From the NCBI RefSeq assembly GCF_000194155.1, contig NZ_GL877878.1, forward strand, positions 2,084,362 through 2,148,361: a stretch of DNA of 64,000 bases, in the 5' to 3' direction. This stretch comes from Saccharopolyspora spinosa NRRL 18395 (GTDB lineage: Bacteria > Actinomycetota > Actinomycetes > Mycobacteriales > Pseudonocardiaceae). Under the pieces are notes generated by a model. The model saw nothing but the letters and a program-made list of their open reading frames with translations. It searched no databases and was not told the DNA's origin. The first letter of the stretch is position 1; the number at the start of each line of letters is the position of its first letter. The position numbers were made by a program, and so were the translations under genes. Below are positions 41,984 through 64,000 of the stretch, piece by piece.

Positions 41984-43729
41984 TCAGCTCGGGACCAGCC
42001 TCCACTGCTTGGCGCGCGACTGAGCGCGCCACATGCTCCCATACCGGCCTTCCTGCTCAATCAGCTCGACGTGAGTGCCGCGTTGCGCCACCTGGCCGTC
42101 CTCGAACACGAGGATCTGGTCGGCGCCGACCACGGTGGACAGGCGGTGCGCGATGACCACAACGGTCTTGCCGGTGACCAGGTTGTCGATGGCTTGCTGG
42201 ACGACCACTTCGGACTCGGTGTCCAGTGCGGCGGTCGGTTCGTCCAGAAGCACGATCGGGGCGTCCTTGAGGATCGCGCGGGCGATGGAGATGCGCTGGC
42301 GTTCGCCTCCGGACAGGGCCGAGCCGATCTCGCCCACGCGCGTTTCGTAGCCGTCGGGGAGGCGTTCGGCGAAGGTGTGGACGTTGGCTGCGCGGGCGGC
42401 GGCGATGATTTCGTCGCGGGTCGCATCCGGCCTGCCCATTGCGATGTTCGCGAGGATCGTGTCGTCGAAGAGGTAGACGTCCTGGAAGACGACGGCGAAG
42501 TGCCGCATCAGCTCCTCTGGTTCCAGTGAGGCCACGTCGACGCCGCCGATGCGTACCTCGCCCTGTTGCGGGTCGGCGAAGCGGGTCATCAGGCGGGTGA
42601 GGGTGGTCTTGCCCGAGCCGGAGGGGCCTACGAGGGCGGTCAGGCTGCGTTCGGGCACCTCGAACGACACGTTGTGCAGCACCGGCTCGGTGCGGCCGTC
42701 GTAGGTGAACGAGACGTCGGAGAAGGTGATGTCGAACGACGACGGCGTCCTGCCGCCCGGCCGGACTGGCAACGCACGCGAGTCGAGGGCCTCGCTGACC
42801 CTGGTCAGGGCCGCCTCGGACAGCTCGAACAGCTTCGTCATCGTCACCGCGGCCGCCAGCGGCTCGGCGAACCTCGCGGCGGTGACGACCACGGCGAGCA
42901 GCAAGGGCAACGTCAGAGAGGCGTTGAACACCAGCGACGCGCCGAGCACGACGAGTGCGATGACGGCTGCTTGCACCAGGAACTGCAGCGCGGCCACCGG
43001 GACCGAGGCGGAACGGTTCGAGGTGGCGTTGGCGGCGTGCTGGTGGGCGAAGACCTCGGTCAGGCGCGGGGAGTTCGCGCCCGCCTGGCCGGTCGCCTTG
43101 AAGACCGGCAGACCCTGCACGTACTCGACGATTCGGCTGGCAGCGCCGGCGTTGGCCGTGTCGACGCGGCGGAAGCCCTGGTTGGAGAGGGTGCGCAGCC
43201 TGCGCAGCAACGGGACGGACACGACCACCGCGGCGACGAGCACGAGGCCCAGGCGCCAGTCGACGGCCAGCACCACGACTCCGAGCAGTGCCGGCACCGT
43301 GACCAGCTGCACGAACAGCGTGGAGAACGCCGAGATGCCGGTGGCGGCGCTGGTGACGTTGGCGCCGACCACCGTCGTGAGATCGCCCGCGGCCCGGCGG
43401 GCGAGTTCCTGCTGGGGCATCGACCGCAGCCGCTCCCCCAGCCTGGTCCTGGTGTCGCCGGTGACGAGATGCCAGTAGTCGAACGTGAACGCGCTCTCCC
43501 GCAGGCGCAGCAACGCCTCGGCCACGACCAGTGCGACCAGGACGCCCAGCCACAGCCAGGCGGCGCCGGTGCCGACCGGGTCGGCGGCGAGGGCGGCGAG
43601 CAGCGGGATGAACGCCGCGTACGCGAGGGCCTGCACGACCGACGCGATCACCGAGATCCGCAGTGTGGTGCGGAACTGCGGCGCGTACGGCCCTGCGGCC
43701 AGGAACATCAACCTGCGGATGCGCTTCAT
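41984..43729 (-). CDS. ABC transporter, fused permease-ATPase (YbtQ/IrtB-like)
   Basis: A 581-residue half-transporter. Six helices occupy about residues 18-300. The ATPase carries Walker A GPSGSGKTTLTR (about 370), Q-loop VVFQDVYLFDD, signature ALSGGERQRISIARA and Walker B IVLLDEPTAALD with the H-loop IAHRLSTV. It pairs with the next half-transporter; the ATGA overlap (43726-43729) couples their translation. Exporter-fold pairs beside thiazoline-siderophore NRPS genes (YbtP/YbtQ, IrtA/IrtB) import the loaded metallophore in known systems, so import is plausible, export possible. Confidence 0.92.
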   Translation of the reverse strand: MKRIRRLMFLAAGPYAPQFRTTLRISVIASVVQALAYAAFIPLLAALAADPVGTGAAWLWLGVLVALVVAEALLRLRESAFTFDYWHLVTGDTRTRLGERLRSMPQQELARRAAGDLTTVVGANVTSAATGISAFSTLFVQLVTVPALLGVVVLAVDWRLGLVLVAAVVVSVPLLRRLRTLSNQGFRRVDTANAGAASRIVEYVQGLPVFKATGQAGANSPRLTEVFAHQHAANATSNRSASVPVAALQFLVQAAVIALVVLGASLVFNASLTLPLLLAVVVTAARFAEPLAAAVTMTKLFELSEAALTRVSEALDSRALPVRPGGRTPSSFDITFSDVSFTYDGRTEPVLHNVSFEVPERSLTALVGPSGSGKTTLTRLMTRFADPQQGEVRIGGVDVASLEPEELMRHFAVVFQDVYLFDDTILANIAMGRPDATRDEIIAAARAANVHTFAERLPDGYETRVGEIGSALSGGERQRISIARAILKDAPIVLLDEPTAALDTESEVVVQQAIDNLVTGKTVVVIAHRLSTVVGADQILVFEDGQVAQRGTHVELIEQEGRYGSMWRAQSRAKQWRLVPS

Positions 43730-45537
43730 GCGATCACGTCCTTCACACTGGTACCCACGAGCCCCCAGCTCGCGGCCTGTTCGTGCCGTGCCCACAGCGC
43801 CGAGTACCGGCCGCCGGCCTTCACCAGCTCCGCGTGCGTGCCGCGTTCGGCGACGCGGCCGTCGTCCAGCACGACGATCTGGTCGACGCCGGTGACGGTG
43901 GTGAGCTTGTGGGCGATGACGATGACGGTCCTGCTGACGGTGAGCCGGGCGACGGCTTCCTGGATCGCGGCCTCGCTCTCCGGGTCGGCGAACGCGGTGG
44001 CCTCGTCGAGCACCACCACGGGCGCGTCGGACAGCATCGCGCGCGCGATCGTGATGCGCTGGCGTTGCCCGCCGGACAGCTTCCCGCCGCGTTCGCCGAC
44101 CTGGCTGTCGTAGCCGTCGGCCAGCTCGCCGACGATGAAGTCGTGCGCCGCGGCCGCTCGGGCAGCCTCGACGACTTCCTCGTCGGTCGCGGAGGGCTTG
44201 GCGAGCCTGATGTTCTCCGCCACCGTGCCGTCGACCAGGAACGGGTCCTGGAACACCAATGTCACGTGCCGCAGCAGGACGTCGCTGGACATCTCCCGCA
44301 CGTCGACACCACCGACGAGCACCGATCCAGCGTCCACGTCGTAGAACCGCGGGATCAGCCGCGCCACCGTGGACTTGCCCGAACCCGACGGCCCGACCAG
44401 CGCGCACACGGTTCCGGCCGGGACGTCGATCGTGACGTCTTGCAGCACCGGGCGGTCCGGCGAGTAGCCGAAGGTCACGCCGCGCAACGCCACCTCCGCG
44501 CCGACCGGCGTCCGGGGCTCGGACGGCTCGGGCAACGGCGGTACGGCCAGCAGTTCGCCGATCCGGACGGCGCCGGCCTTGGAGTCGTTGACGTAGTTCG
44601 TCAGGTGCATCAGCGGTGAGATCGCCTCGATCGGCATCGCGCCGATCAGCAGGCCCAGCACCAGATCAGCGGGTTCGATCCACCCGGCGGCGAGCATCGG
44701 CACACCGCACGCGGCGACCACCAGCAGCGTCGGCAGCGGCACGATCACCAGCCGGTTGAAGGCCGAGGCGCTGCGTGAAGTCGCCGTCCACGCGCCCACG
44801 GCGTCGGTGAACTCTTGCACCGCCGACCCGAAGCGGCGAAACGAGGTGCGGCCATCGTCGAACGTCCGCACCACCGGCATGCCCTGCACGAACTCGACCA
44901 CCGCGTTGTTCACGTCCTCCGCGGCCTGGTTGTACTTCGCGCGTTGTGCCGTGTGGTCGCGGGCCATCAGCGAGAACGACACCATCGCGAGCGGCACCAC
45001 CAGGAGCACCACCAGCAGCAGCTTCCACTGCACGATGCCCAGTGCGATCAGCGCCGCAAGCGGTTGCGCGGCAACGCCTCCGAAGAACGGCACGGCGTCG
45101 GCGACCACGTTGTGCAACGCCGCCACGTCGTCCTGCACGATCTTCTTGATCCGGCCGGACCCCGTGCGCTGCACGACCCCCAACGGCATCCTGGCGAGCG
45201 CGTCGGCCAAAGTCCGCCGCAGCACCACTTCCAGGTCGAACGAGGCGTGGTGCGCGACCTGCTCGGCGAGCCACTTGGCGCCGAAGGACAGCACCAGCAA
45301 CGCGAACGCGCCGCCGGCCCACCAGCCGAACGCGGTGAACGACCGGTCCGCCGCGAACAGCTCACCCACCGCCATCGCGACGCACACGTACCCGACGACC
45401 GCGGCGACACCGCCCAGCGCCCCCAGCGCGAGTCCGCGCCCGAGCCTTGACTTCACCCCCGGCGACAACGCGACGAGGTCCATCACCGGCTTCATCCCGG
45501 CGTTGTTGTCGGCGGACGTCCCAGAAATATCTGACAT
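43726..45537 (-). CDS. ABC transporter, fused permease-ATPase (YbtP/IrtA-like)
   Basis: A 603-residue half-transporter. Membrane helices run from about residue 35 (LALGALGGVAAVVGYVCVAM) to 290. The ATPase has Walker A GPSGSGKSTVAR (about 385), VFQDPFLVDG, signature KLSGGQRQRITIARA and Walker B VVVLDEATAFADPESEA with IAHKLTTV. The Asp usually found in the D-loop region (ALD) reads AFADPE, a variant common in this subfamily. The start overlaps the NRPS-1 stop (TGATG at 45535-45539). It probably forms a heterodimer with the downstream half-transporter. Confidence 0.92.
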   Translation of the reverse strand: MSDISGTSADNNAGMKPVMDLVALSPGVKSRLGRGLALGALGGVAAVVGYVCVAMAVGELFAADRSFTAFGWWAGGAFALLVLSFGAKWLAEQVAHHASFDLEVVLRRTLADALARMPLGVVQRTGSGRIKKIVQDDVAALHNVVADAVPFFGGVAAQPLAALIALGIVQWKLLLVVLLVVPLAMVSFSLMARDHTAQRAKYNQAAEDVNNAVVEFVQGMPVVRTFDDGRTSFRRFGSAVQEFTDAVGAWTATSRSASAFNRLVIVPLPTLLVVAACGVPMLAAGWIEPADLVLGLLIGAMPIEAISPLMHLTNYVNDSKAGAVRIGELLAVPPLPEPSEPRTPVGAEVALRGVTFGYSPDRPVLQDVTIDVPAGTVCALVGPSGSGKSTVARLIPRFYDVDAGSVLVGGVDVREMSSDVLLRHVTLVFQDPFLVDGTVAENIRLAKPSATDEEVVEAARAAAAHDFIVGELADGYDSQVGERGGKLSGGQRQRITIARAMLSDAPVVVLDEATAFADPESEAAIQEAVARLTVSRTVIVIAHKLTTVTGVDQIVVLDDGRVAERGTHAELVKAGGRYSALWARHEQAASWGLVGTSVKDVIA

Positions 45538-48500
45538 CACAGTCCTTCCCGCAGCGGCGCTGCAACGCCGTCCGCAACCTGACGGACGATCGGTGGTTCC
45601 ATGCAGGAGAAGTGGTTTCCGTCCACTTCGGACACGGTGAACTCGCCCATGCAGACGTCGCGCCAGAACTGGAGCATCTGCTCGGTGAGTCCGGGGGCGA
45701 ACGTGGACGGGCCGGTCGGCACGAGGAACCGCATGTCGCCGAAGTAGGCGGGCGGCACGAACCGCGCGGCCTGGAAGCTGTGCTTGAACACCCGGAACAT
45801 GCCGAGCGCCAGTTCCGCCACGACCTCCTGGCCCTTCGCCCGCGAGGCGGACTCCGCGTACAGCGCGAACCGGTCCTCCTGCGACAGCTCGCCGAGCTTG
45901 GCGTAGAACTCGCCGGACTCACCGGGCAGCTGGGCCAGAGCACCCTCGGGTACCCGACCGCCGTTGTCCCGCACCAGAGCGGGGAACGCCTGCGCCACCG
46001 TCTGCGGATCGATCGCGCCGAACCCGAGCTGATCCGTGGCGACACCGAGGTTCGGCACGAATAGCGTCTCGAACATCAGGTCGTCCTCGATGTCGAACGA
46101 CACCAGGTGGCTGCTCACGAGCACGAGGTCGTCCACGACGACGCCGCGTTCGCCGAGCCTGCGCGCGACCTCGGTGGCGAACATGCCGCCCAGGCAGTAG
46201 CCGACCAGCTGGAACCTCGGGTAGCCGGCCGAGATCAGCCGGTCGGTGTAGTCGTCGGCGAGCCTGCTCACCACGTCCACCGGGTCGATGGCGCGGTAGA
46301 TCTCGGTGTCGGCGATGGCGATGCCGAGCACCGGGCCGAGGTCCTGCTCGACCATCTCTGCGGCGAGCGCGCGGAAGCACTCCATAGTGCCGAGACCGGC
46401 GTGGAACAGCACCCGGACCGGGCCGTCGCCGGTGCTGAACGGCACGAGCGCGGCGTTGCTGCCGTTGGTCACCACGGCTTCCGGTTGTGCCTTGGCGCGC
46501 AGGAACGCGGCCAGTGCGGCGATGTTCGGCTCGTTGAGCATCTGGCGCAGCAGCGTGTCGAACGGCACCGGCGTGGCCTCCGGCAGTCGCTCGCGCAGCT
46601 TGCCCGCCGTGCGGGCCATGATCAGCGAGTCCGCGCCCTTGACGAAGAAGTCGTCCCGGCGCCCGATCGACGGCAGCCGCAAGGCCTCCGCCCACACCAC
46701 GCTCAGCGCTTCCTCCAGAGCGTCCGCGGGCGCGTCGCTCTCGTCGTCGGCACCCGCGACCGGCTTCCAGCCCGCGAGCGTGCGCCGGTCGACCTTGCCG
46801 TTCGACGTGAGCGGCAGGGCGTCCACGATCTGCAGCTGCGCCGGGATCATGTGCTCGGGCAGGCGTTCGCGCAGGAAGGCGACCAACTCGTCGGGCGTGA
46901 TCGCCGCACGGTCGGTCTTGACCCGCCGGGCACCCGGCAGCTCCGCGCCGGGCAGATCGCCCTCCGTCAGCACCAGCCAGCCACCGGGGACGAGCAGTTC
47001 GGTGAACACGTCGTGCGGAACCGGGGCGATCACCAAGTCCACCGAGTTCGGTGCGAAACCCTGTGCCCGGTAGTCGATGGTGGCGTCCAGCGCGGTCAGG
47101 TCGGCGTCGAACCCGGCCAGCACGTCGGCGAGACCGTCGACCGGGATCTGCTCCAGCACGCGCAACGGCCGGTCGGTGCTCACCGCGACGCGGTGGGCCA
47201 GCGCCACGACCGGACGGGCCGCTTTCGCGACCAGCTGCGCGAACTTCTCGTTCAACGGCACCGGTTCCACCCGCGCGGACTCGACGACGCCGAACAACGC
47301 GCCGTCGTCCAGCACCACCCCGGCGGCCGCGACGGCGGGGTGCTCCAGCAGCGCCGCCTCGATCTCCCCCAGCTCCACCCGGTGCCCGCGCACCTTGACC
47401 TGGGTGTCCGCCCGGCCGAGGAACTCGACGTCGCCACCGGGCCGGTAGCGCGCGAGGTCACCGGTCCGGTACAGCCGCTGCCCGTCGGCGGGATGCGCGA
47501 GGAACCGGTCGGCGGTCGTTTCCTCGTCGTCCAGATAGCCGTCTGCAAGGCCGGCTCCGGTGATGTACAGGTCGCCGGTCGTCCACACCGGACAGTCCTG
47601 AAGGGACGGATCCAGCACGCGGAAGCCCTGGTTCGCGAGTGGCTTGCCGTAGGGAATGCTGTGCCAGCCTTCGGGAACGCCGTCGATGCGGTGGAAGTTC
47701 GACCAGATCGACGCCTCGGTGGCGCCGCCGAGGCCGATCAGTTCCAACCGGGGCAGCCGGGCCGCGGCTTCGGCGGGGAGCGTCGTCGGGATCCAGTCGC
47801 CCGACAGCAGGCCGAGCCGCAGGGTAGGCAGGTCCCTGCCTTCACCGTCCAGGTACGCGACGAGCATCTGCATCAACGCGGGCACGGAGTTCCACAGCGT
47901 GACTCCGTGCTCCGCGACCAGGTCGGCCCAGTGCGACGGGTCGGCGCGGCGGTCCGGGTCGGCCAGGACCAGCGTGCCGCCGAGGGCGAGCGGGCCGAAG
48001 ACGTCGTAGACCGACAGGTCGAAGCCGAGGTTCGCGACGCCGAGCACGCGGTCGTGACCGGTCACGCCGAACCGTTGCGTCACATCGACGATCGTGTTCG
48101 CCGCGGCGCGGTGGCTGATCACGACGCCCTTGGGCTTGCCGGTCGAACCAGAGGTGTGGATCACGTACGCGGGCCGGTCCGGGTCACCGGCGGCGACCTC
48201 GAAGTCGTGCACCGGCTCCAGCTCGTCGACCGCGATGCCCTCGCCGGCCCACGACTGGGTCAGGACGCGCTCGATCCCCGCGTCGCGCAGGATCGCGGCC
48301 CGGCGCAACGGCGGCTGCAGCGTGTCGATCGGCACGTACACGCCACCCGCGAGCAGCACGCCCAGCGCACCCGCGACCTGCTCGACGCCCTTGTCCATCA
48401 CGATCGCGACCAGCTCACCGGGCTTCAGACCGGGCAACGCCGCTGCGACCGCACCGGCACGACCGGCCAGTTCGCCGTAGGTCGTGGTACCACGGCGGTC

Positions 48501-50117
48501 CACGACGGCCGGCCGGTCCGGAGTGCGCCGCACCTGCTCGAACACCGGTTGGTGCAGTCGGAAGTCCGGCAGTTCGGCGGCGGTCGCATTGGCGTGGGCA
48601 CGTTCTTGGACCTGCCAGGACGGCAGTGCGACCGGCCGTTCCTCGTCCCACAGCGCGTCCCCGTTGGCGAGGCCGCGCATCAGTTCCTCGAACGCGGCGA
48701 ACATGTCGTCCACCAGCCCGTCCGGGAACACACCGTCGCGGACGTCCCAGTTGATCCGCAGGCCATCGGCGTCGTCCATGACCTGGCAGTCGATGAACAC
48801 CTGCGGCGTCTGCGTGATGCCGAAGCCGTCGAACCGGGCGGCGGCCGGCTGGCCGTCGCCGATGCCGATCGCACTGGTGAAGACGATGGGCATCAACGCT
48901 TCCTCGCGCCCGCGGCGGCGCGCCAGCTCGCGGATCACCTCGACGCCGGAGTGCAGCCGGTGGTCGAGGTCGGCGAACAGCCGGTCGGCCACGCCGCGCG
49001 CGCGGTCGGTGAACGATCCACCGGTCCAGTCGACCTCCAGCAGGTTGACCGAGGTGAAGTCGCCGACCACCTCGTGCACCTGCGGGTGCAGGTCGAGGCG
49101 GTTGAGCACCGTGAGGTTGAGGCTGAACCGGGGCGAGGCAGCCCAGCGCGCGATCACCGCGGCGTAGGCGGCGAGCACGGCGGACGACGGCGTGAGACCG
49201 CGAGCCTGGGTGCGTGCGGTGAGCGCGGCCCACTCAACCCCGTCGAGCCGGAGTTGCTTGCGGGAGAACGCGGGCGGCTGCTCGCGGCGGTCCAGCGGCA
49301 GGTCCGGTGCCGGCGGCAGGGCGTCGAGGCGTTCGGTCCAGTAGGCGCGATCCCGTTGGTAGCGGCTGGTTTCCCGCAGGCGCAGTTCGGTGAGCAGGTA
49401 GTCGCGGAACCTCATGCCCAGCTCGGGCAATTCGAGTTCCGGGTTGGCGTGCAGGGCTTCCAGATCGCCAAGCACGAGCGCGATGCTCGCCCAGTCGGCG
49501 ATGAGGAAGTCGAGCGAGACGTGCAGCACCGCGTGGTCGTCGGTGCGGGTTGCGCGCAGGTCGAACAACGGCCACCGCGCCGGGTCGTAGACGTGGTGGC
49601 CGAGCTCGGTCCGCACGTCCTGCAGCGCCTTGCCGACGACGTCCTGGTCCGCGCCGGACAGGTCGGTGACCACGACGTCGTAGCGCGGGACCTCGGGCAG
49701 CACGCGCTGGTAGCCGTCGGCGGAGATCACCGCACGCAGCATGTCGTGGCGCGCGATCAGCTTGTTCCAGGCCGCGTTCAGCCGTTCCGCGTCCAGCGAG
49801 GGGTAGCTGACCTCGACGTAGACGTGACACGCGACGCCACCGAACCCGAAGGCGTCGTTGCGGCCCAACAGGTACGCGGCCTGCACGTCGGTCAGCGGGA
49901 ACGGCTCGAACCGGCCCTCGTCGTCGGTGGTCAGCTCGACGTGCTCGGCGCGCAGCAGGTCGAGCACGGCCTGTTTGCCCGCCTTGAGCTGCTCCAGCAG
50001 GTCACCGGTGAGTACGCCCTTCGGCGCGCGGTAGCGCAGCTTGTCGTCCTCGGCCCAGAGCGTCACGCCGGCCTTGGCGAGTGTGGCGACGAGGTCTGTT
50101 GTCTCCTGGCTGGTCAC
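45537..50117 (-). CDS. NRPS-1: heterocyclisation-adenylation-carrier-thioesterase module (Cys)
   Basis: 1,526 residues. Cy domain (about 68-490) with the DxxxxDxxS motif DFLIADWAS at 202. A domain from about 510 (TSGSTGKPKG at 652) whose specificity positions read D-L-Y-N-L-S-L-I-W-K, the known cysteine code. Between core A8 (about 909) and A10 (NGKVDRRTL, about 1104) there is a shortened, degenerate methyltransferase-like insert (VDLVIAPVPHDVFTELLVPG; motif I replaced by VLEQIPVDG). Carrier Ser in KGADSLIMAR (about 1161). C-terminal thioesterase with nucleophile elbow GYCLGG (about 1304), a Cys in place of Ser. GTG start overlaps the upstream stop. This is the terminating module, releasing the chain. 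Confidence 0.92.
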   Translation of the reverse strand: MTSQETTDLVATLAKAGVTLWAEDDKLRYRAPKGVLTGDLLEQLKAGKQAVLDLLRAEHVELTTDDEGRFEPFPLTDVQAAYLLGRNDAFGFGGVACHVYVEVSYPSLDAERLNAAWNKLIARHDMLRAVISADGYQRVLPEVPRYDVVVTDLSGADQDVVGKALQDVRTELGHHVYDPARWPLFDLRATRTDDHAVLHVSLDFLIADWASIALVLGDLEALHANPELELPELGMRFRDYLLTELRLRETSRYQRDRAYWTERLDALPPAPDLPLDRREQPPAFSRKQLRLDGVEWAALTARTQARGLTPSSAVLAAYAAVIARWAASPRFSLNLTVLNRLDLHPQVHEVVGDFTSVNLLEVDWTGGSFTDRARGVADRLFADLDHRLHSGVEVIRELARRRGREEALMPIVFTSAIGIGDGQPAAARFDGFGITQTPQVFIDCQVMDDADGLRINWDVRDGVFPDGLVDDMFAAFEELMRGLANGDALWDEERPVALPSWQVQERAHANATAAELPDFRLHQPVFEQVRRTPDRPAVVDRRGTTTYGELAGRAGAVAAALPGLKPGELVAIVMDKGVEQVAGALGVLLAGGVYVPIDTLQPPLRRAAILRDAGIERVLTQSWAGEGIAVDELEPVHDFEVAAGDPDRPAYVIHTSGSTGKPKGVVISHRAAANTIVDVTQRFGVTGHDRVLGVANLGFDLSVYDVFGPLALGGTLVLADPDRRADPSHWADLVAEHGVTLWNSVPALMQMLVAYLDGEGRDLPTLRLGLLSGDWIPTTLPAEAAARLPRLELIGLGGATEASIWSNFHRIDGVPEGWHSIPYGKPLANQGFRVLDPSLQDCPVWTTGDLYITGAGLADGYLDDEETTADRFLAHPADGQRLYRTGDLARYRPGGDVEFLGRADTQVKVRGHRVELGEIEAALLEHPAVAAAGVVLDDGALFGVVESARVEPVPLNEKFAQLVAKAARPVVALAHRVAVSTDRPLRVLEQIPVDGLADVLAGFDADLTALDATIDYRAQGFAPNSVDLVIAPVPHDVFTELLVPGGWLVLTEGDLPGAELPGARRVKTDRAAITPDELVAFLRERLPEHMIPAQLQIVDALPLTSNGKVDRRTLAGWKPVAGADDESDAPADALEEALSVVWAEALRLPSIGRRDDFFVKGADSLIMARTAGKLRERLPEATPVPFDTLLRQMLNEPNIAALAAFLRAKAQPEAVVTNGSNAALVPFSTGDGPVRVLFHAGLGTMECFRALAAEMVEQDLGPVLGIAIADTEIYRAIDPVDVVSRLADDYTDRLISAGYPRFQLVGYCLGGMFATEVARRLGERGVVVDDLVLVSSHLVSFDIEDDLMFETLFVPNLGVATDQLGFGAIDPQTVAQAFPALVRDNGGRVPEGALAQLPGESGEFYAKLGELSQEDRFALYAESASRAKGQEVVAELALGMFRVFKHSFQAARFVPPAYFGDMRFLVPTGPSTFAPGLTEQMLQFWRDVCMGEFTVSEVDGNHFSCMEPPIVRQVADGVAAPLREGL

Positions 50118-50842
50118 AGCTGGGGCTCCTTCGGAGGGGCGGGGACGAGGTGCAGGCCGCTGGTGAGCGAGAGGGGCGTGGTCAGACCGGCGAGCTCTAC
50201 CTCCAGCACACCCGTGGTGGTGGCCGCCCGCGGGCGCAGCCACGGGTCCTCGCCGATGAGCCGGTCGTAGTCGGCGCGGTGCTCGGGCCGGATTCCGTAG
50301 TGCACGGCCCACACTGCGGTGGCGCCGTTGGGGTGGGTGATCTTCGCCGGCCGCTGGGGTGGGTCGTAGGAGGAGACGACGAACGGCAGCACGGCCGGTC
50401 GTGGCGACATGAACTGGTAGTCGACGCGCTGCCCGTCGGGACGGGTGCGGCCGTTGCGAAAGATCCGCGAGACGCCCAGGCCGCTGCCCACCAGCCGGTC
50501 GCGGGTGGCGGTCAGGTCGAGGTCGTCGGTCTCCAGGGCGACGTCCCGCCAACCGCCGTCGGCGCGGGCCCACCTCGCGAACCGGTCCCCCATGCCCCTG
50601 CCGAACCGGGCGGCCACCGGCCAGCGCAGCAGGCGCAACGCGGACGGGAACGTGAAGAACTCCAGAAATGGGCCTTCTTCGAACCACACGAGCGCGTTGT
50701 GCGCCGTGTCCGGAGCGCTTCCCCACGCGACCGAAAAACCGAGTTCGGCGAGTTCGCCCACTGTTTTCTGGACATTCTCGATCCGGCACAGCACGTGGCT
50801 GCACCTGAGTTCCTGAAAACCATCTGAACTGCTAGAAGTCAT
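50114..50842 (-). CDS. VOC (Glyoxalase_3-like) protein
   Basis: A 242-residue protein. The N-terminal SHVLCRIENVQKTVGELAEL (residues about 15-34) and FEEGPFLEFFTFPSALRLL have the beta-alpha-beta pattern of the glyoxalase/VOC fold, and DVALETDDLDLTATRDRLVG continues it. It has no obvious second metal-site repeat. Role in metallophore synthesis is unknown; a metal-dependent isomerase, lyase, or resistance/binding function are possible. Coupled to NRPS-1 by GTGA. Its start is 35 bp from the divergent methyltransferase start. Confidence 0.8.
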   Translation of the reverse strand: MTSSSSDGFQELRCSHVLCRIENVQKTVGELAELGFSVAWGSAPDTAHNALVWFEEGPFLEFFTFPSALRLLRWPVAARFGRGMGDRFARWARADGGWRDVALETDDLDLTATRDRLVGSGLGVSRIFRNGRTRPDGQRVDYQFMSPRPAVLPFVVSSYDPPQRPAKITHPNGATAVWAVHYGIRPEHRADYDRLIGEDPWLRPRAATTTGVLEVELAGLTTPLSLTSGLHLVPAPPKEPQL

Positions 50843-52359: not shown

Positions 52360-52363
52360 CGGA

Positions 52364-57300: not shown

Positions 57301-60300
57301 CCCGCCTCGGGGTGGTGGTCGACCAGCAGCAGCGAGGTGAAGTCTCCGATCACGTTGTGGATGTCCGGATGCACCTCTCGCCGGTCGAACAGCGTCACGT
57401 TCACCGTGAGGTCCGGCTGCGCGCTCCAGCGACCCAGTACCTCGGCGAACGTGGTCAGCAGCACTGCCGAGGGCGTCAGTCCGTGCTCGCGCACGCGGGC
57501 GGTGATCGCCTGCCACTGCTCTGCGGGCACCAGCGCGGACCTCCGGACGAACCGTGGCGAGGTGATCGAGGCCGGATCGAGGGCGAGCGGCAGGCGTGGT
57601 CCCGGCGGCAGTTCGCGGGAGATCCGCGTCCAGTACTCGGACGCCTCCGTGGTGTCCGGTTCCGGGCTCAGCAGGTAGTCGCGGAACGTCACGCCGACCG
57701 GCGGCAGCTCTGCGGCCGGATTCTCATACAGCGCACCGAGTTCCGAGTAGAACGTCAGCACGCTCAGCGCGTCGAACACCAGGTTGTCGGTGCCGATCGC
57801 AAGCACGCCGCGTCCGGCGGTGATGGAGAACAACGGCCACGCGGACGGGTCGAACACGTGGTGCGACCAGGTCTCCCGCGGGTTGTCGACGAACTTCAGC
57901 TTGAACGGCGGCACCTCCTCCAGCACCTGCTGGCTGCCGTCGTCGAGGAACACCGCGCGCAGCATGTCGTGCCGTGCCACAAGCGCGTCCACGGCCGCTT
58001 CCAGCCTCGGCACGTCGAGATCGGTGATCTCGTACTCGCGGTAGAAGTGGCTGCCGACGCCGCCCAGGGTGAAGCCCTCGCCGCGGCCGACCCAGTACGC
58101 GCGCTGGACGTCGGTCGGTGGGAACGGCTCGAAGCGGTTCGCCGGATCCGCCACCACCGGAGCGAGCGTCGCGGACTCGCCCGTCGTGAGCGTGGCGGCG
58201 AAGTCGGCCAGCACCGGGTTCGCGAAGAGCTTCGCCAGCGCCACCTCGGACAGCCCGGCGGCGGTGAGCCTGCCGACGAGCCGGGTCGCGAGCAGCGAGT
58301 CGCCGCCGAGCTGGAAGAAGTTCTGCTCGCGGCCGGTGACCGGCACACCGAGCAGGCCGGACCACACCGAGGCGACCGTCTCCTCTATCGCTCCGGCGGG
58401 CGGGGTCAGCTCACCGTCGTCGGCGGACAGCTCGGCGACGGCCCTCACGAGCGCGGCGCGGTCGACCTTTCCGTTACGGGTCAACGGCAACGACGGCAGC
58501 ACCACGACATGGTCCGGCACCATCACCGCGGGCAGCCGGTCGGCGAGGGAGCGCCGCAGCGCCTCCTCGTCGAGTTCGGCGAGCAGCGGCCCGGGGTCGG
58601 CGCCGGACTCCAGGACGGCGACCAGTTCGTCGGTGCGCTCGGCGAGCCGGTGGACCAACGGCTCGTTGCGCTTCCACCTGAGCGTGGTCCACGGTTCCGC
58701 GTTCCCGACCCGGTCACGCCACGGCACCTCGGCGTCCGGCACCTCGTCGAGCAGGTGTGCCAGGAACGAGTCGGCGATCTCCGCCCGGACGTTCGTCGTG
58801 ACGACGGCGGCGATGCGCCGCTCCGGCGTCACGAGCGCGATGCCCTGGGAGACACCGGGGAACGAGGTGAGAACTGCGTCGATCTCGCCGAGCTCGATGC
58901 GGTGGCCGCGGATCTTGACCTGGTGGTCGGTGCGGCCGAGGAACTCCACGGTGCCGTCCGGCCAGTACCGGCCCCGGTCGCCGGTGCGGTACCAGCGGCG
59001 GCCGTCGTGCTCGACGAACTTCTCCGCCGTGCGCTCCGGGTCGTTCTGGTAGCCGAGCCCGACGCCGGTGCCGGAGACCCACAACTCGCCGGGCACCCAG
59101 TCGGGGCTGTCGTGACCGCGGGCGTCCACGACCCGGCAGCGGGTGTTGCGGAACGGCTTGCCGTACGGCACCGCCCGCCAGCGCGGGTCGACCTCACCAA
59201 CTTCGCAGATGGTCACGTGGATGGCGGCCTCGGTCATGCCGCCGAGTCCCGCGAACCGGCAGCCGGGCCGCAGCTCCCGCAGGCGCGCGGGCAGGTCGAC
59301 GGTGACCCAGTCGCCGCCGAGCATCACGAGCCACAGCGCGTCGCCCAGGCCTTGGCCCTGGCCCTGGCCCTGGCCCTGGCCCGCGACGATCAGCATGTCG
59401 AGCAGTGCGGGCACGCAGCTCACCACGCTGACGTCCCAGTGGCGCACCAGCCGCGCCCATGCGTGCGCGTCGCGGCGTTCGTCCTCGGAGAGCAGCACGA
59501 CGCTGCCACCGAAGCCCAGGAACGCGAACAGGTCGTACGCGGACAGGTCGAAGTCCAAAGCGGACAGTGCGATCGTGCGGTCTTCGGGCGTGACGCCGAA
59601 TTGGTCGTTGACCGCCTCGACGGTGTTCGCGACCGCGCGGTGCGGCACCTCGACGCCCTTGGGGGTGCCGGTCGAGCCGGACGTGAAGATCACATACATC
59701 ACGTCCTCGCCGTCGGCCACCGCGAGATCGGCCGCCGGCTCGTGCGAGGCGGACTTCGCGACGACGTCGTCGGTTAGCACGATCCTGGCACCGGCGGACT
59801 CGTGCACGGCCGCCCGGCGCGCGGCCGGAATGTCCACACCGGACGGCACGTAGTGCGCGCCCGCGCCGAGCACACCTAGCACGGCGATGACCTGGTCCAC
59901 GCCCTTGGGCAGGGTGATGCCGACCGCGTCGCCCTGCTGGACTCCGTTGGCGCGCAACAGGGAGACCAGCTGCCGGCCCCGGCGCGACAGTTCGCCGTAG
60001 GTCATGGCCTCCTCGTCGCCCCAGACCAGCGCGACCCTGTCCGGTTCGGCCTCGGCCAGCGCGAAGAACCGTTCGTGCAACGGCCTGCCGGGCGCGGCGC
60101 CGTCGGTGGCGTTGACGGCGTCACGGACGGAACGCTGACTCTCCGGCAGCAGGCCGCCGACGGGAACATCCCACCCGGTGCCCGCGGCGAGGCGGACGAC
60201 CAGCGCGGTGAACGCGCCGAACATCGCGTCCAGCACGCCGGGCTCGAACACCGTCTCGCGCGCGTCCCAGCTGAGCAGGACACCGCCTTCGTGCTCGGTG

Positions 60301-61694
60301 ACCTGCGCGTCCAGCCAGACCTGCGGCCCCTGCGAGATCATCCACACCGGACGGCCGATCCGTTCGCGCACCTGCGGCCCGAACAGCTCGCCGAAGTCGA
60401 GCGTGCTGGAGAACACCACGGGCGCGAGCACCTGCTCGCCGTGGTTGGCCCTGGTCAGCTCGCGCAGCACGTCGACGCCGGTGAACGAGGCGTGCCCGGC
60501 CGCGTCCCGCAGTTCGTCCTGGGCGCGTTTCGCCGCTTGCTCGAACGGTTCGGCGAGACCCGTGCGGACACCGAGCAGGACCGAACTGGAGAAGGCGCCG
60601 ACGAGTTCGTCCACGTCGTCGTGCAACGGCTCGCGGCCGAACACCGGGACGTTGAGCAGGAAGTCGCGCTCGGCGCTCCAGGCGCCGACGACCTCGGCGA
60701 ACGCGGTCGCGAAGACGACAGCCGGGGTGAGTCCGGCGGCGTGCGCGCACTCCTTCAGCCGTGCCGACGCGGAGGGGTCGAGCCAGTGCTCGCGGCGACG
60801 GCCGGTGGTCTCCTCGTTCTGCGTGATCCGCACCGGCAGCGCGGGCGCACCGGGAAGGTCGTCGAGGCGGCCGAACCACCACTCGCGGTCGCTCGCCACC
60901 ACCTCGCCCCGCGTGCGGGCACGGTCGGCGAGGTAGCGCGGGAAGCTGTACCCGATGAGCGGCAACGGTTCCCCGGCCACGGCGCGCGCGAGGTCGGCGA
61001 CCAGGATCCGCAGGCTCATCGCGTCCGCCGCGACCATGTCCACGTTCACGTGCACCCGTGCGGCGTCATCGCCGACCTGGGTCAGCTGGACGTCGAACAC
61101 CTCGCCGCCGGAAACGTCCATGACGCGCTGGGAAAGCGCGGCGCGCAGGTCCGCGAGACGCCGCACGCGTTCGGCCTCGCCGGTGGTTCGAAGGTCGTGC
61201 ACGGTCAGGCCGGGCCACGAGGTCTCGGAGGCGATGCGCTGGCGGCCGGAGTCGTCGACCGCGACACGCGTCATGCCGTGCCGGGCGAACACAGCGCGCA
61301 CAGCCAGTTCCAACGTGGCCGGGTCGACCGGGCCGCCGTCGAACTCGGTGTAGAAGTGTGCCGCCACGCCGCCGAGCTCCTGGCCGTCGCGGCGGCCGAT
61401 CCACAGCGCGTGCTGCAACGGGTCGAGGTCGAACGCCGCGGATTCGTCCACATCGGACTCATCGGCGGTGGTCGCGGCGCGGTCTCCTGCCAGCTCTCGC
61501 CACGCGGCGATGCTCGGTCGCTCCGCTAGCTCGGCGAAGCTCGCCGTCACCCCCGCCCGCCTGAGCTTGCCGGCCACGCGCATCATCGCGATCGAGGTCA
61601 TGCCGCCCGCGATCAGGTCGGCGCCGTCGTCGAGCTGGTCCGCCGGCACCCGCAGCACCGAGGCCACCAGCGAGCGAACGTCCAGGCTGGTCAC
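54348..61694 (-). CDS. NRPS-2: ArCP-Cy-A-T-Cy-A(MT-like)-T
   Basis: 2,448 residues. N-terminal aryl carrier protein with Ser in IAGGMTSIAMMR (about 32). Cy1 (DMVAADAMS, about 220). A1 (TSGSTGTPKG, about 666) with unusual code D-L-Y-S-M-G-L-I-H-K. T1 LGGDSLLATR (about 1131). Cy2 (DNLVFDALS, about 1302). A2 (TSGSTGEPKG, about 1747) with cysteine code D-L-Y-N-L-S-L-I-W-K. Embedded in A2 (about 2020-2320) is a methyltransferase-like domain without the GxGxG SAM motif (VLANNVLHRYADVRHGVAVA), like the epimerase of PchE. T2 LGGDSLLATRF (about 2398). It would load an aryl acid and build two heterocycles before passing the chain to NRPS-1. GTG start overlaps the thioesterase stop. Confidence 0.92.
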   Translation of the reverse strand: MTSLDVRSLVASVLRVPADQLDDGADLIAGGMTSIAMMRVAGKLRRAGVTASFAELAERPSIAAWRELAGDRAATTADESDVDESAAFDLDPLQHALWIGRRDGQELGGVAAHFYTEFDGGPVDPATLELAVRAVFARHGMTRVAVDDSGRQRIASETSWPGLTVHDLRTTGEAERVRRLADLRAALSQRVMDVSGGEVFDVQLTQVGDDAARVHVNVDMVAADAMSLRILVADLARAVAGEPLPLIGYSFPRYLADRARTRGEVVASDREWWFGRLDDLPGAPALPVRITQNEETTGRRREHWLDPSASARLKECAHAAGLTPAVVFATAFAEVVGAWSAERDFLLNVPVFGREPLHDDVDELVGAFSSSVLLGVRTGLAEPFEQAAKRAQDELRDAAGHASFTGVDVLRELTRANHGEQVLAPVVFSSTLDFGELFGPQVRERIGRPVWMISQGPQVWLDAQVTEHEGGVLLSWDARETVFEPGVLDAMFGAFTALVVRLAAGTGWDVPVGGLLPESQRSVRDAVNATDGAAPGRPLHERFFALAEAEPDRVALVWGDEEAMTYGELSRRGRQLVSLLRANGVQQGDAVGITLPKGVDQVIAVLGVLGAGAHYVPSGVDIPAARRAAVHESAGARIVLTDDVVAKSASHEPAADLAVADGEDVMYVIFTSGSTGTPKGVEVPHRAVANTVEAVNDQFGVTPEDRTIALSALDFDLSAYDLFAFLGFGGSVVLLSEDERRDAHAWARLVRHWDVSVVSCVPALLDMLIVAGQGQGQGQGQGLGDALWLVMLGGDWVTVDLPARLRELRPGCRFAGLGGMTEAAIHVTICEVGEVDPRWRAVPYGKPFRNTRCRVVDARGHDSPDWVPGELWVSGTGVGLGYQNDPERTAEKFVEHDGRRWYRTGDRGRYWPDGTVEFLGRTDHQVKIRGHRIELGEIDAVLTSFPGVSQGIALVTPERRIAAVVTTNVRAEIADSFLAHLLDEVPDAEVPWRDRVGNAEPWTTLRWKRNEPLVHRLAERTDELVAVLESGADPGPLLAELDEEALRRSLADRLPAVMVPDHVVVLPSLPLTRNGKVDRAALVRAVAELSADDGELTPPAGAIEETVASVWSGLLGVPVTGREQNFFQLGGDSLLATRLVGRLTAAGLSEVALAKLFANPVLADFAATLTTGESATLAPVVADPANRFEPFPPTDVQRAYWVGRGEGFTLGGVGSHFYREYEITDLDVPRLEAAVDALVARHDMLRAVFLDDGSQQVLEEVPPFKLKFVDNPRETWSHHVFDPSAWPLFSITAGRGVLAIGTDNLVFDALSVLTFYSELGALYENPAAELPPVGVTFRDYLLSPEPDTTEASEYWTRISRELPPGPRLPLALDPASITSPRFVRRSALVPAEQWQAITARVREHGLTPSAVLLTTFAEVLGRWSAQPDLTVNVTLFDRREVHPDIHNVIGDFTSLLLVDHHPEAGEPWLAGVRRLQRRMWDALDHREVSAVKVLRSMARDSGVAEVTMPVVFTSALGLPVRANPLLTEQVHGTSQTPQVWLDHQVSEVDGGVELVWDAVDGLFPDGLLDAMFAAYRQLVSWLATEDWAAPVPDLLPVAQQERRALVNATADDIPDVTLHAGFFQHALKTPGRSALLDADVVTYGELADRALRVAAALDVAPGEPVAVTLPKGADQIAAVLGVLAAGGAYVPIGVDQPDARRERIHALAGVRTVVTPEFVAEAQSLEPVTPVFGDPDRLAYVIFTSGSTGEPKGVEITHRAAMNTIADVSERYEVGPSDRGLAVSTLDFDLSVYDVFGLLSAGGALVLVEEDARRDARRWHELVVRHGVTVWNTVPALLDMLLVVAGPRPLPLRVVLVSGDWVGLDLPARLAAVAPDCRFTALGGATEASIWSNFLEVDEVDPAWPSIPYGYPLRNQKFRVVDAFGRDCPDWVEGELWIGGAGVARGYRGAPELTAAQFTGGWYRTGDLGRYWPCGTLEFLGRRDQQVKIRGHRIELGEVEAALSSAPGAGAAMAAVVDGSLVGAVVPAALPVAAMAGGQDGVPPDHSAQTVVVAPLLTELLKGEIAPEHEPTARVWHSWLSGTARRDLGDRMWRALPFSGQDTAVDPAVRRARELVDLYRDILSGGTPASALLSEPLLSPASIVAAVADQATAVVRQEIAELGRPVEVAVWGVPAELTGLGISVTTVDGPIDAVPEALRGRFDVVLANNVLHRYADVRHGVAVAALLCAPGGRVIAVEPEELAPIGLLTAAVLEHGFAGLDPARREAGSPMLRARRWAEEFASFGLTGAVHRPGGNGLAVISATLPDSAPVLDTAAVRAHARTRVPEHMVPERVGVLPWLPLSANGKVDRGALKWLVGGGKETGEPPRGRFEELIAALWAELLGVPVTGREQSFFVLGGDSLLATRFIQQVEQRHGVVLPLRKLFAGPTVAQAAALFAEAADTEEGEL
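59354..59388. repeat. GGCCCT hexanucleotide microsatellite in NRPS-2
   Basis: Five perfect GGCCCT units (59354-59383) plus a partial sixth, encoding a Gly-Gln dipeptide run in the A1 domain between the position-278 and position-299 specificity residues. Unit number can change without frameshift. Confidence 0.9.
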
Positions 61695-62428
61695 CGCGAT
61701 GTCTCCTCGATGGCGAGGCCCAGCACGCGTGCGGCGTGCTCGGCGGGGAAGAAGTGGCCGCCCGGCACGACGTGACGGGTGAAGGGGCCCGACGTGTACG
61801 TGCTCCAGCGGTCCGCCTGCTCGGTCGTGACCTCACCGTCCTGCGCCCCGATGATCGCGGTGACCGGGCAGGACAGGGACGCCCCCGGCTGGTGCCGGTA
61901 GGTCTCCTCGACCCGGTAGTCGCCGCGGATCGCCGGCAGGAACACGGGCCACAGTTCCTTGGCGGACGCGAGCATCTCGGCTCCCGCGCCACCGACCCGC
62001 AACACCTCGGCCACCAAGCCTTCGTCGTCGCGCAGGTGGACGTCACCGCCGACCAGTTCGTCCGGCGTGTGCCTGCCGGACACCACCAGCCGCGCGGGCA
62101 CGACGCTCAGCTCGCGGGCCACCTCGTAGGCGACCAGCGCACCCATGCTGTGCCCGAAGAGGACCAGAGGTGCGCCCGAAAGGGCTTCGACCTCGGCGGT
62201 GACACCGGCGACGAGCTCGCTCATGGCGGTCGGCGGGGCGTCGGCGATGCGGTCCTCACGGCCGGGGTACTGCACCGCGTGCACCTCGACGTCCGCGGGC
62301 GCGAGACCGGACCAGTCGCTGTAGAAACTGGCCGCACCGCCGGCGTGGGGAAAGCACACGAGACGCAGGCGAGCGGCGGGGCGCGGGGTTCGGCAGCGCA
62401 GCCAGCGCGCGGCGGTTCGGGGCAGCAC
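61691..62428 (-). CDS. Type II thioesterase
   Basis: A 245-residue alpha/beta hydrolase: LVCFPHAGGAASFYSDW at the N-terminus, the nucleophile elbow FGHSMGALVAYEVARELS (Ser about 97), Asp near IIGAQDGEV and His in VVPGGHFF. It removes misprimed acyl groups from the carrier domains. Start GTG 62428 is chosen so that the protein begins just ahead of WLRCRTPRPAARLRLVCFPHA as in relatives; a TTG at 62473 would add 15 residues. It is the first gene of the minus-strand biosynthetic operon. Confidence 0.9.
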   Translation of the reverse strand: MLPRTAARWLRCRTPRPAARLRLVCFPHAGGAASFYSDWSGLAPADVEVHAVQYPGREDRIADAPPTAMSELVAGVTAEVEALSGAPLVLFGHSMGALVAYEVARELSVVPARLVVSGRHTPDELVGGDVHLRDDEGLVAEVLRVGGAGAEMLASAKELWPVFLPAIRGDYRVEETYRHQPGASLSCPVTAIIGAQDGEVTTEQADRWSTYTSGPFTRHVVPGGHFFPAEHAARVLGLAIEETSR

Positions 62429-62681
62429 GAGCAGCTCACTTCCCTTCGAAGGAGTCCTGATGAGGTAGAGCAATGTTCAAGGCAAGCAAGGGCACCCTAA
62501 CTCGCCGCAGGGAAATACGCAGACCCGTTCGGCAAATCACCTGCGGTTAGTCGCGAGTATCACGTCGACTGATGCGCACATCGACATATAAGTCCAGGTC
62601 ACTGCCGAACCCAAAGTCAGATTCCGCCATTCGCCAGATACCCGTATAGGCGTGGGAAAGTGCGTCGATCCGGTCTCAAAT

Positions 62682-62760: not shown

Positions 62761-62774
62761 TTAGGTAGACCTAA
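62761..62774. promoter_or_regulatory. Iron-box-like palindrome TTAGGTAGACCTAA
   Basis: Perfect 14-bp palindrome TTAGGT-AG-ACCTAA, 34 bp before the ATG of the binding-protein gene. The half-sites are those of the DtxR/IdeR/DmdR consensus (TTAGGT...ACCTAA), but the central spacer is 2 bp where the consensus has 7, and the overlapping CTTAG sequence could give an alternative register. Iron or other metal control is therefore likely but not proven. Confidence 0.5.
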
Positions 62775-62808: not shown

Positions 62809-64000
62809 ATGTGGCTCAGTCGTCGTGATCTGCTGCGCACCGCCGGGCTCGCGCTCGGCGTCGCCGGCGCCACCTCGGTGCTCGGCGCGTGCGGGGCGAG
62901 CACGCCCGGCGCCGCTCCGGTCGAGGACACCGGCGCTCGCACACCCAGGCAGGGCGGAAAGCTCAGAGCGGTGTTCACCGGTGGCGGAGCGGCGGAGTCG
63001 CTCGATCCGTTCACCGGGCAGGCGCCGATCGACATCGTGCGCAACGACGTGATCTTCGACTCGCTGTTCACGCTGGAGAACGGCAAGCCCGTGCCACGCC
63101 TGGCGTTGTCCGCCGAACCCGCCGCGGACGCGAAGTCGTTCACGCTCAAGATCCGCGACGGCGTGAAGTGGCACGACGGCTCGCCACTGACCGCACAGGA
63201 CGTCGCGCACACGTTCCGCTACCTGGGCGCGCCGGAGCGGGCGTTCCCCAGCGAGCTCGCGATGTACGTGAACCTCGCCGGGATCGAGGTCGTGGACGAC
63301 GCCACCGTGCGCGTGCCGACCGTGCAGGCGCTGGGTGACCCGGCACTGTTGCTGGCGGCGTTCCTGGTCAAGGTGATCAAGAACGGCACGCAGTCGTTCG
63401 CCCCGCAGACCGCCCTGGGCACCGGGCCGTACCGGGTCAAGGCGTTCGAGGCCGGCCGTGAGGCGACGCTGACCCGCTTCGACGGCTACTGGGACAAGGC
63501 CGGGGTGGTCGACGAACTGGTGCTACTGAGCCTCACCGACCCGCAGGCCAAGACCAACGCGGTGCTCACCGGTCAGGCCGACTACGCCGCCGACATACCG
63601 TTCACCACCGCGAAGATCGGCGCGGCGTCGGCGGAATTGGAGGTCCGCACCGCCGGTGAACGCAGCCGCGTCGGCTTCGGTTTCGTGCTCAACACCACCA
63701 TCGCGCCGTTCAACGATCCGCGCGTGCGGCGTGCGGTGCGGCTCGCCTTGGACCGCAAGGCGTTGGTGGACAGCGTCTTCCTCGGCTACGGCACTGTCGG
63801 CAACGACCTGTTCGGCTACGGCGCCACCGACTTCAGCGCACGGGAACCGCTGGCGCGCAACCTCGACGAGGCCCGCAAGCTCGTCAAGGAGGCGAACGCC
63901 GGTGGCGTGCCGATCGTGATCCGCTCGGCGGAGTACGAGATCGGCTTCAACGCCTCCACCCAGCTCGCCGCCGAGCAGCTCAAGGAGGCCGGACTGGACG
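62809..64000 (+). CDS. ABC substrate-binding lipoprotein, family 5 (peptide/nickel type), 3' end outside window
   Basis: At least 397 residues. MWLSRRDLLRTAGLALGVAG has a twin-arginine motif (SRRDLL) and is followed by the lipobox VLGAC, so a Tat-exported, lipid-anchored protein. After PRQGGKLRAVFTGG the SBP_bac_5 features appear: ESLDPFTGQAPIDI, LALSAEPAADAKSFTLKIRD, VKWHDGSPLTAQDVAHTF, LGTGPYRVKAFEAG and NDPRVRRAVRLALDRKALV. GGAGG precedes the ATG. Divergent from the NRPS operon, with an iron-box-like palindrome in its promoter. It probably captures the metal-loaded chelator, or a metal or peptide. Confidence 0.9.
   Translation, partial: MWLSRRDLLRTAGLALGVAGATSVLGACGASTPGAAPVEDTGARTPRQGGKLRAVFTGGGAAESLDPFTGQAPIDIVRNDVIFDSLFTLENGKPVPRLALSAEPAADAKSFTLKIRDGVKWHDGSPLTAQDVAHTFRYLGAPERAFPSELAMYVNLAGIEVVDDATVRVPTVQALGDPALLLAAFLVKVIKNGTQSFAPQTALGTGPYRVKAFEAGREATLTRFDGYWDKAGVVDELVLLSLTDPQAKTNAVLTGQADYAADIPFTTAKIGAASAELEVRTAGERSRVGFGFVLNTTIAPFNDPRVRRAVRLALDRKALVDSVFLGYGTVGNDLFGYGATDFSAREPLARNLDEARKLVKEANAGGVPIVIRSAEYEIGFNASTQLAAEQLKEAGLD

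Follow-up and report, generated by a model that had tools for sequence, protein, structure and literature searches.

A coelibactin-family siderophore gene cluster in Saccharopolyspora spinosa with an apparent polyketide-for-salicylate starter exchange

We analyzed a 64,000-nucleotide stretch of the Saccharopolyspora spinosa NRRL 18395 genome (the window; C1:2084362-2148361 of 8,581,920 bases in 22 contigs, genome label G000) that carries a nonribosomal peptide synthetase (NRPS) cluster for a predicted aryl-capped metallophore. Judged from its genes, there is in our estimate a roughly 70% chance that this is a siderophore cluster of the coelibactin/sorangibactin family in which a polyketide starter has taken the place of salicylate. 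A sequence-only reading of the window had placed the cluster at 42000..64000; the cluster is real, but the window edge cuts it, and it extends about 18 kb past 64000, to about 80-82 kb (Table 1; coordinates past 64000 are L009 + 64000, in window numbering). Because of that cut, the reading had reported that there was no P450, which lies outside the window. Beyond the edge it had foreseen an aryl-AMP ligase, which is there, and a salicylate synthase, which is not; an iterative-type polyketide synthase (PKS) and a ketosynthase III (KSIII) acyltransferase are found instead. Domain calls come from Pfam and NCBIfam profile searches and operon calls from gene overlaps, and conservation was assessed in 390 genomes of the same family (Pseudonocardiaceae) and 394 genomes drawn from the class.

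Compared by published gene content, the locus belongs to the coelibactin/sorangibactin/mupirochelin siderophore family. Its NRPS pair has the family arrangement of aryl carrier protein (ArCP), heterocyclization (Cy), adenylation (A), thiolation (T) and thioesterase (TE) domains, ArCP-Cy-A-T-Cy-A-T and Cy-A-(MT)-T-TE, without a working methyltransferase (MT) motif in NRPS2. The family's saccharopine dehydrogenase-like (SDH-like) protein, VOC protein, Irp3-type reductase, P450, free methyltransferase, aryl-AMP ligase and type II thioesterase (TEII) are all present; of its salicylate biosynthesis genes, none was found in 124 kb around the locus or recognized among the five of seven genomic candidates scanned. 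Pfam bore out the domain orders first read from the sequence, ArCP-Cy-A-T-Cy-A(MT-like)-T and Cy-A-T-TE, and added a TubC docking domain to NRPS2; the imide reductase scored above the TIGR01761 cut-off, and the trans-methyltransferase, the two ABC half-transporters and the family-5 binding lipoprotein had Pfam matches. The class proposed from these genes, an aryl-capped heterocycle metallophore with one reduction step and ABC uptake, is thus supported. The label "saccharopine dehydrogenase" proved weak, PF03435 being below cut-off and only the generic PF01370 (Epimerase) above it. The coupling of the SDH-like and VOC genes to the NRPS genes holds, but in two operons, the VOC gene with NRPS2 and the SDH-like gene with NRPS1 and the reductase. 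Since both genes are standard in this family, the case for novelty built on them falls, and the supposedly unnamed gene combination is that of the sorangibactin (PMC10127202) and mupirochelin (PMC10080011) clusters, as far as the accessible parts of those papers describe them.

The sorangibactin cluster, srb, shares the NRPSs, the SDH-like SrbE, methyltransferases, the P450 SrbH, the Irp3-like SrbI, the VOC protein SrbJ, the ligase SrbK and a TE with a Cys nucleophile, and differs by the salicylate synthase SrbB, a LysR regulator and two methyltransferase genes; its NRPSs have seven and five domains, whereas the second NRPS here has a short MT-like remnant rather than a fifth domain, and the accessible description of srb does not mention a PKS, KSIII or AsnB (PMC10127202). 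The mupirochelin cluster, mch, shares a Thr/Cys-Cys-Cys NRPS pair, SDH, VOC, imide reductase, P450, two ABC proteins, thioesterase and aryl-AMP ligase, and differs by salicylate made through MchN/MchM, TonB receptors, an AraC regulator and two methyltransferases; neither PKS nor AsnB is in the gene list seen (PMC10080011). The closest precedent is the legend to Figure S2 of PMC4256081, which describes a coelibactin-related S. spinosa cluster with a 6-methylsalicylate synthase (MSAS), a P450, a carboxamide synthase and a 3-oxoacyl-ACP synthase. The NRPS machinery is the same and all four extras are present here, so the locus is very probably the published cluster, and this gene arrangement has very probably been in print, as a gene picture, since 2014. 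We found no paper naming its product among open-licence PMC papers. Kineochelins were considered as the product and rejected, since they are mixed-ligand compounds of another type and their cluster has a salicylate synthase.

The evidence for a starter exchange begins with the salicylate genes. Four salicylate-type regions (G120, Amycolatopsis decaplanina; G166; G318; G116) all contain a salicylate synthase, and that of G166 passes TIGR03494 with 458 bits (cut-off 325). The PKS-type set consists of S. spinosa (G000), Lentzea sp. NBRC 102530 (G268), Allokutzneria (G104 and G103) and G015; no salicylate synthase was found at 1e-5 in the fetched regions of this set, nor at 1e-3 within 124 kb around the S. 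spinosa cluster. None was recognized in the S. spinosa genome, where five of seven chorismate-enzyme hits were scanned with NCBIfam (all except L162 and C2:1560139). These five are TrpE, PabB, PabAB, DhbC and a 240-residue TrpE/PabB-like frame; four of them score 87-179 bits against TIGR03494, the PabAB score not being among the matches listed. Best TIGR03494 scores were 169 bits in Lentzea, 177 in one Allokutzneria genome and 310 in Sporomusa sp. KB1, in which a 44% identical salicylate-synthase homologue adjoins the cluster.

What the PKS-type clusters carry resembles a 6-methylsalicylate starter subcluster of the ChlB1/ChlB3 type, with an iterative PKS, a KSIII triad and a free carrier protein. 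All five PKSs (1557-1618 residues) have the KS Cys, the first KS His, the AT Ser, the DH His, the KR GGxGxLG and the ACP Ser; our pattern missed the second KS His in two of them (G000 and G268) and the KR Ser/Tyr in all five, and both were read by eye in G000. KSIII has PDB 7vyu (1.7e-124) and ChlB3, 7eqi (8.6e-71), as its top structure matches, and in S. spinosa its C99, H280 and D285 form a C-H-D triad; the triad, with ChlB3 spacing, is present in all five clusters. In ChlB3 the triad is Cys113, His296 and Asp301, and the enzyme picks up 6-methylsalicyl from the PKS and passes it to a free carrier protein (PMC9573744). The chlorothricin relay ChlB1-ChlB3-ChlB2 shares the iterative PKS, the C-H-D KSIII and the free carrier protein with this locus; there, by the account available, ChlB6 grafts the aryl group onto a chlorothricin precursor, and no Cy-domain NRPS is fed (PMC9573744). 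Because the attachment-motif Ser is kept in both the free ArCP and the NRPS1 ArCP, loading by KSIII, by the ligase or by both could occur.

The aryl-AMP ligase appears to have changed with its supply. Its pocket stretch reads EFNFAWG(C/S)PG with LLTFTR in all five PKS-type clusters, and AHNF(P/A)(L/F)ACPG with LLN(Y/F)TR in all four salicylate-type clusters; the AHN motif is also retained in DhbE (1md9), in the salicylate-AMP ligase 5wm2, which we take to be CahJ, and in PchD. The acid-pocket residues of BasE are Asn242, Phe243, Ser247, Val336, Val344 and Tyr346 (PMC12005286). Mapped by our own reading of the alignments, the Ser247 position is Cys, as in the salicylate type, in three of the five PKS-type ligases and Ser in G104 and G103. 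It thus seems that the salicylate starter was replaced by one made by the PKS, with the ligase motif altered in step with the swap.

Four other genomes keep the PKS-type gene set, with protein identities of 53-93%, so that chance is not at issue. Shared by all five are the core, importer, P450, AsnB, PKS, KSIII, ligase, ArCP, amidohydrolase (AMH), LuxR and TetR-like genes; in G103 the cluster is split between two contigs, and in G015 PKS and AsnB lie about 5 kb further apart. NRPS1 and PKS identities run in parallel (84/87% in G268, 72/72% in G015, 64/66% in G104). The SDH-like query matched 29 of the 390 family genomes at 1e-40, with identities of 100, 83, 59, 59 and 56% in the PKS-type genomes and at most 47% in others. 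KSIII matched 17 of 390 at 1e-70, reaching at least 71% identity only in the PKS-type genomes; nine of the other 12 (46-62%) have no SDH match at 1e-40, and the two genes lie 3.2 Mb apart in G166 and on different contigs in G120 and G126. Five of 394 genomes in the class sample, including S. spinosa, have KSIII, at 54-63% identity outside S. spinosa itself. Trees were built, within coverage and identity limits, from the fetched genome regions together with 18 of 58 named loci (one duplicate Amycolatopsis decaplanina row excluded), and the PKS-type clusters form one clade for the ligase, the reductase and the SDH-like protein (support 100/100, 100/99 and 100/98). These comparisons indicate that the PKS block and the NRPS genes were inherited together, as a single unit. 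Nearest to this clade in the reductase and SDH trees are Alkalilimnicola, Sporomusa and Actinopolymorpha, with several long branches; the ligase tree is weakly resolved around the sister group.

The three Cy motifs of the NRPSs are intact (DMVAADAMS, DNLVFDALS and DFLIADWAS). The A-domain codes, located by motif and read at the GrsA positions with the final letter assumed, are in order DLYSMGLIHK, DLYNLSLIWK and DLYNLSLIWK. We take DLYNLSLIWK, in the second and third domains, to be a cysteine code and DLYSMGLIHK, the first code in all five PKS-type NRPS1 proteins, not to be one. Because of this difference, one oxazoline plus two thiazol(id)ines are likelier than three thiazolines. Three cysteines as substrates were rejected on the first code, and by that predicted code the cluster departs from the pyochelin/yersiniabactin pattern, in which every heterocycle is Cys-derived. 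The MT-like insert of NRPS1 matched methyltransferase families below cut-off only, and SAM motif I was not found in it or in the short insert of NRPS2. Between A8 and A10, NRPS2 has an in-line methyltransferase of 409-413 residues in salicylate-type clusters, with a SAM motif in 2/2, and this is shortened to 199-211 residues without that motif in PKS-type clusters (4/4), whereas NRPS1 module 2 has 353-364 residues without a SAM motif in the four PKS-type proteins measured, out of five, and 76-80 in the salicylate type (3/3). The cluster has one free methyltransferase gene, not two as in sorangibactin and mupirochelin. The TE nucleophile is Cys (GYCLGG) in all six NRPS2 proteins examined, of both cluster types. 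In sorangibactin, the part of the paper available reports that the TE Cys is essential and proposes release onto homocysteine or methionine; for the first A domain, antiSMASH predicts Cys, and the authors' model and serine feeding favor serine (PMC10127202).

On these genes a pathway can be proposed. The PKS would make 6-methylsalicylate or a close alkyl-aryl acid, which KSIII would move onto the free ArCP, and/or the ligase would activate as the free acid onto the NRPS1 ArCP. Cy1 and A1 would add Ser or Thr and form an oxazoline, and the P450 probably oxidizes this to an oxazole, the reaction reported for SrbH. Two cysteines would follow as thiazolines through Cy2 and Cy3, and the imide reductase and free methyltransferase may turn at least one of these into an (N-methyl-)thiazolidine. 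Release would be by the Cys-nucleophile TE, perhaps to an external nucleophile, which is the proposal made for sorangibactin; AsnB probably amidates a carboxylate, and the two ABC half-transporters and the family-5 importer would move the metal complex. AsnB is present in all five PKS-type and three of four salicylate-type regions (none in the part fetched of the fourth, G116), and also in the Streptomyces alkaliphilus and Streptomyces sp. ISL-12 loci; S. spinosa has five Asn_synthase proteins.

The promoter sites point to iron. Upstream of the binding-protein gene, TTAGGTNNACCTAA recurs in all five PKS-type clusters; it has one exact match in the 8.58-Mb S. spinosa genome (reversed control 0) and does not occur in the salicylate-type and paralogous regions that were fetched. 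In all four salicylate-type clusters, 19-bp DtxR/IdeR-like sites with 2-4 mismatches, counted without a chance control, lie 5' of TEII or the synthase. The DtxR 19-mer itself occurs at up to three mismatches at five places in the S. spinosa genome, none at the cluster, and at up to four, again without a chance control, in the promoter of G015 and not of G000, G268, G104 or G103. A TTAGG(T/G)GAGCCTAA site (81035) precedes the LuxR gene in G000, G268 and G104, the three looked at. DtxR-like iron control of the cluster is likely, not proven. Between PKS and KSIII in S. spinosa lie twin perfect TGAGTAGNNNCTACTCA palindromes, at 75533 and 75589; G015 has two (one with a mismatch), G268 one and G104 none, and they are a likely candidate site for a local regulator.

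Several points weigh against the replacement of salicylate in an iron-chelating product. The product, its expression and its metal binding are predictions from the genes. The KS-AT-DH-KR-ACP layout is common to 6-methylsalicylate and naphthoate synthases, so it does not fix the exact acid. The KSIII/ArCP relay and the AMP ligase are both kept, and one of them is redundant on either simple route. The ligase of G007, whose cluster is of a third type and has different starter genes, likewise deviates from the AHNF motif (GFNYTWCCPG), so the motif change alone cannot name the acid. Salicylate-type Pseudonocardiaceae clusters as the direct sister of the PKS type are contradicted by the reductase and SDH trees, so the swap was not a single step between those sets. 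As for iron, the operator has 14 bp, against 19 bp in the DtxR/IdeR consensus, and near position 81920 there is a perfect, Fur/Zur-like palindrome, TGATAATCATTATC, on the 5' side of where the TetR-like gene probably starts. Finally, the 2014 legend has the polyketide moiety possibly attached to the siderophore ("might be attached") rather than replacing salicylate (PMC4256081); to that account the present analysis adds the ligase, relay and conservation evidence from which replacement is inferred.

A more specific form of the replacement reading is put forward only tentatively: that the PKS-type clusters are a distinct lineage in which the iterative PKS, KSIII and the free ArCP would feed methylsalicyl to the Cy-NRPS, the former salicylate-AMP ligase would be adapted to the new acid, AsnB would make a terminal carboxamide and an iron-controlled LuxR regulator would switch on the polyketide half. 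If true, this lineage would exemplify a naturally occurring exchange of starters on a siderophore assembly line.

That the product is a zinc metallophore and not a siderophore seems unlikely. Zur control of coelibactin reportedly suggests a zinc metallophore, and in the nataxazole producer coelibactin-pathway salicylate serves UK-1 better in zinc-deficient medium. TGATAATCATTATC is unique in the S. spinosa genome (a single match at up to one mismatch; reversed control 0), with three mismatches to what we take to be the Zur consensus, but a search allowing two mismatches did not find it in the regions fetched for the four other PKS-type clusters. Zur control at the promoter of TEII and the solute-binding protein was rejected, no Zur-like site being found there; that promoter has DtxR-like half-sites in 5/5 clusters, as does the LuxR promoter in the three looked at, and the salicylate-type relatives have the longer iron sites described above. 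Mupirochelin, for its part, is able to bind Zn, according to the portion of PMC10080011 available.

We also think it improbable that the cap is still salicylate from elsewhere and that PKS and KSIII decorate the completed siderophore with a methylsalicyl group, as an ester or amide, or make a separate product, a reading close to that of the 2014 legend (PMC4256081). The PKS operons do have their own promoter, different palindromes and regulator genes alongside, and such KSIII enzymes usually transfer aryl groups to other scaffolds (chlorothricin and others). Against this stand the salicylate synthase search of the S. spinosa genome, negative over five of seven candidates, the retention of the aryl-AMP ligase inside the KSIII operon with a pocket changed along with the swap, and a predicted backbone that would offer no obvious hydroxyl acceptor.

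It is quite unlikely that the PKS makes a larger cap, for instance methylnaphthoate, and that the metallophore is a naphthyl compound like the karamomycins: the shared domain layout would allow it, but naphthoate synthases are longer than the short PKS seen here. The legend of PMC4256081 lists the PKS as MSAS, whereas a naphthoate starter has been predicted for the related Sporomusa termitida cluster (PMC12971057, in part).

Starter exchange has parallels in the sources as far as available. The karamomycin-like Sporomusa termitida cluster, which differs by its menaquinone genes, likewise shows it in a thiazol(id)ine metallophore, and micacocidin with a PKS-derived alkylsalicylate (PMC12971057). 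Cahuitamycin C is an actinobacterial peptide capped with 6-methylsalicylate, which an iterative PKS makes and the salicylate-AMP ligase CahJ is proposed to load; there the PKS is unlinked from the NRPS cluster, a salicylate synthase is also present and the scaffold is another (PMC4757757). With one NRPS family, two aryl suppliers and a matching ligase-pocket change, the clusters described here would be a natural experiment on such exchange. The chelator rule of PMC12971057, in the form seen, does not cover PKS-derived alkylsalicylate, which matters for mining tools, and the product would put the chemistry of the coelibactin family to the test, probably in an industrial species that can be cultured.

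Table 1. Features of the cluster in window numbering.
Feature	Position	Strand	Basis and remarks
ABC half-transporter 2 (YbtQ-like type)	41984..43729	-	PF00664+PF00005; overlaps ABC half-transporter 1
ABC half-transporter 1 (YbtP-like type)	43726..45540	-	PF00664+PF00005
NRPS2, TubC docking-Cy-A(Cys)-T-TE	45537..50117	-	Pfam domains, motif extraction
VOC/glyoxalase-like protein (SrbJ/MchJ-like by published gene content)	50114..50842	-	PF13468
Free methyltransferase, start codon uncertain	50842..52359	+	PF08242 and others; SAM motif VMEIGAGTG
Thiazolinyl imide reductase (Irp3/PchG type)	52364..53371	-	TIGR01761 279.1 bits (cut-off 188.8); PF21390 Irp3-like_C
NAD(P)-binding SDH-like protein	53368..54351	-	PF01370 above, PF03435 below cut-off; kept in relatives
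NRPS1, ArCP-Cy-A(DLYSMGLIHK)-T-Cy-A(Cys; MT-like insert)-T	54348..61694	-	Pfam domains, motif extraction
TEII, start uncertain	61691..62473	-	PF00975, GHSMG
Palindromic operator TTAGGTAGACCTAA, DtxR/IdeR-like half-sites	62761..62774		conserved in 5/5 PKS-type clusters
Family-5 solute-binding lipoprotein, RR...C leader	62809..64365 (past window end at 64000)	+	PF00496
Permease 1	64362-65303	+	PF00528
Permease 2	65300-66082	+	PF00528
Duplex ABC ATPase	66079-67515	+	PF00005
P450	67503-68714	+	PF00067
AsnB-like amidotransferase	68739-70556	+	TIGR01536
Iterative-type PKS, KS-AT-DH-KR-ACP, 1618 residues	70668-75524	-	Pfam
KSIII acyltransferase, ChlB3-like	75641-76627	+	Pfam; PDB matches
Aryl-AMP ligase	76627-78192	+	TIGR02275 (2,3-dihydroxybenzoyl-AMP synthase) 621.6 bits, below 723.55 cut-off
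Free ArCP	78189-78413	+	Pfam
Amidohydrolase (AMH)	78410-79906	+	Pfam
LuxR-type gene	79815-81032	-	PF00196
TetR-like gene	81149-82060	-	label by eye; no Pfam match at 1e-5

One operon on the minus strand comprises the mutually overlapping genes for TEII, NRPS1, the SDH-like protein and the imide reductase, and a second those for VOC, NRPS2 and the two ABC half-transporters; the plus-strand methyltransferase gene separates them, with a distance of 44 bases to VOC and of 10 to the reductase. The importer genes and P450, five genes in all, overlap by 4-13 bases (13 between the ATPase and P450 genes), with AsnB starting 24 bases further on, and the KSIII, ligase, free ArCP and amidohydrolase genes overlap by 1-4 bases.

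Two related loci lie elsewhere in the S. spinosa genome. A second coelibactin-like cluster with SDH, reductase, P450 and importer (G000:C5:190000-223000; L022, L023) has a sugar-transaminase-type aminotransferase, a luciferase-like mono-oxygenase and an amino-acid oxidase next to its ligase, which suggests another starter, perhaps picolinate; its ligase open reading frame (ORF) lacks an internal stretch found in the G007 orthologue. A third Cy-NRPS cluster (G000:C2:722000-740000; L026) has a PabAB-like aminodeoxychorismate synthase alongside; the genome holds three related clusters, perhaps with as many starters. A glycosyltransferase of this genome matches PDB 3tsa, an NDP-rhamnosyltransferase that we take to be SpnG of S. 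spinosa, with full identity across 390 residues. In other genomes, a Rieske-type protein (labeled by eye) adjoins the aryl-AMP ligase in the Actinopolymorpha cluster (L081 756-2174), and Nonomuraea endophytica, the source species of karamomycins, has a related NRPS/SDH/reductase locus (L090). Elsewhere in the window, a single ORF at 36808-38367 fuses an RraA-like domain with a flavin-reductase-like domain.

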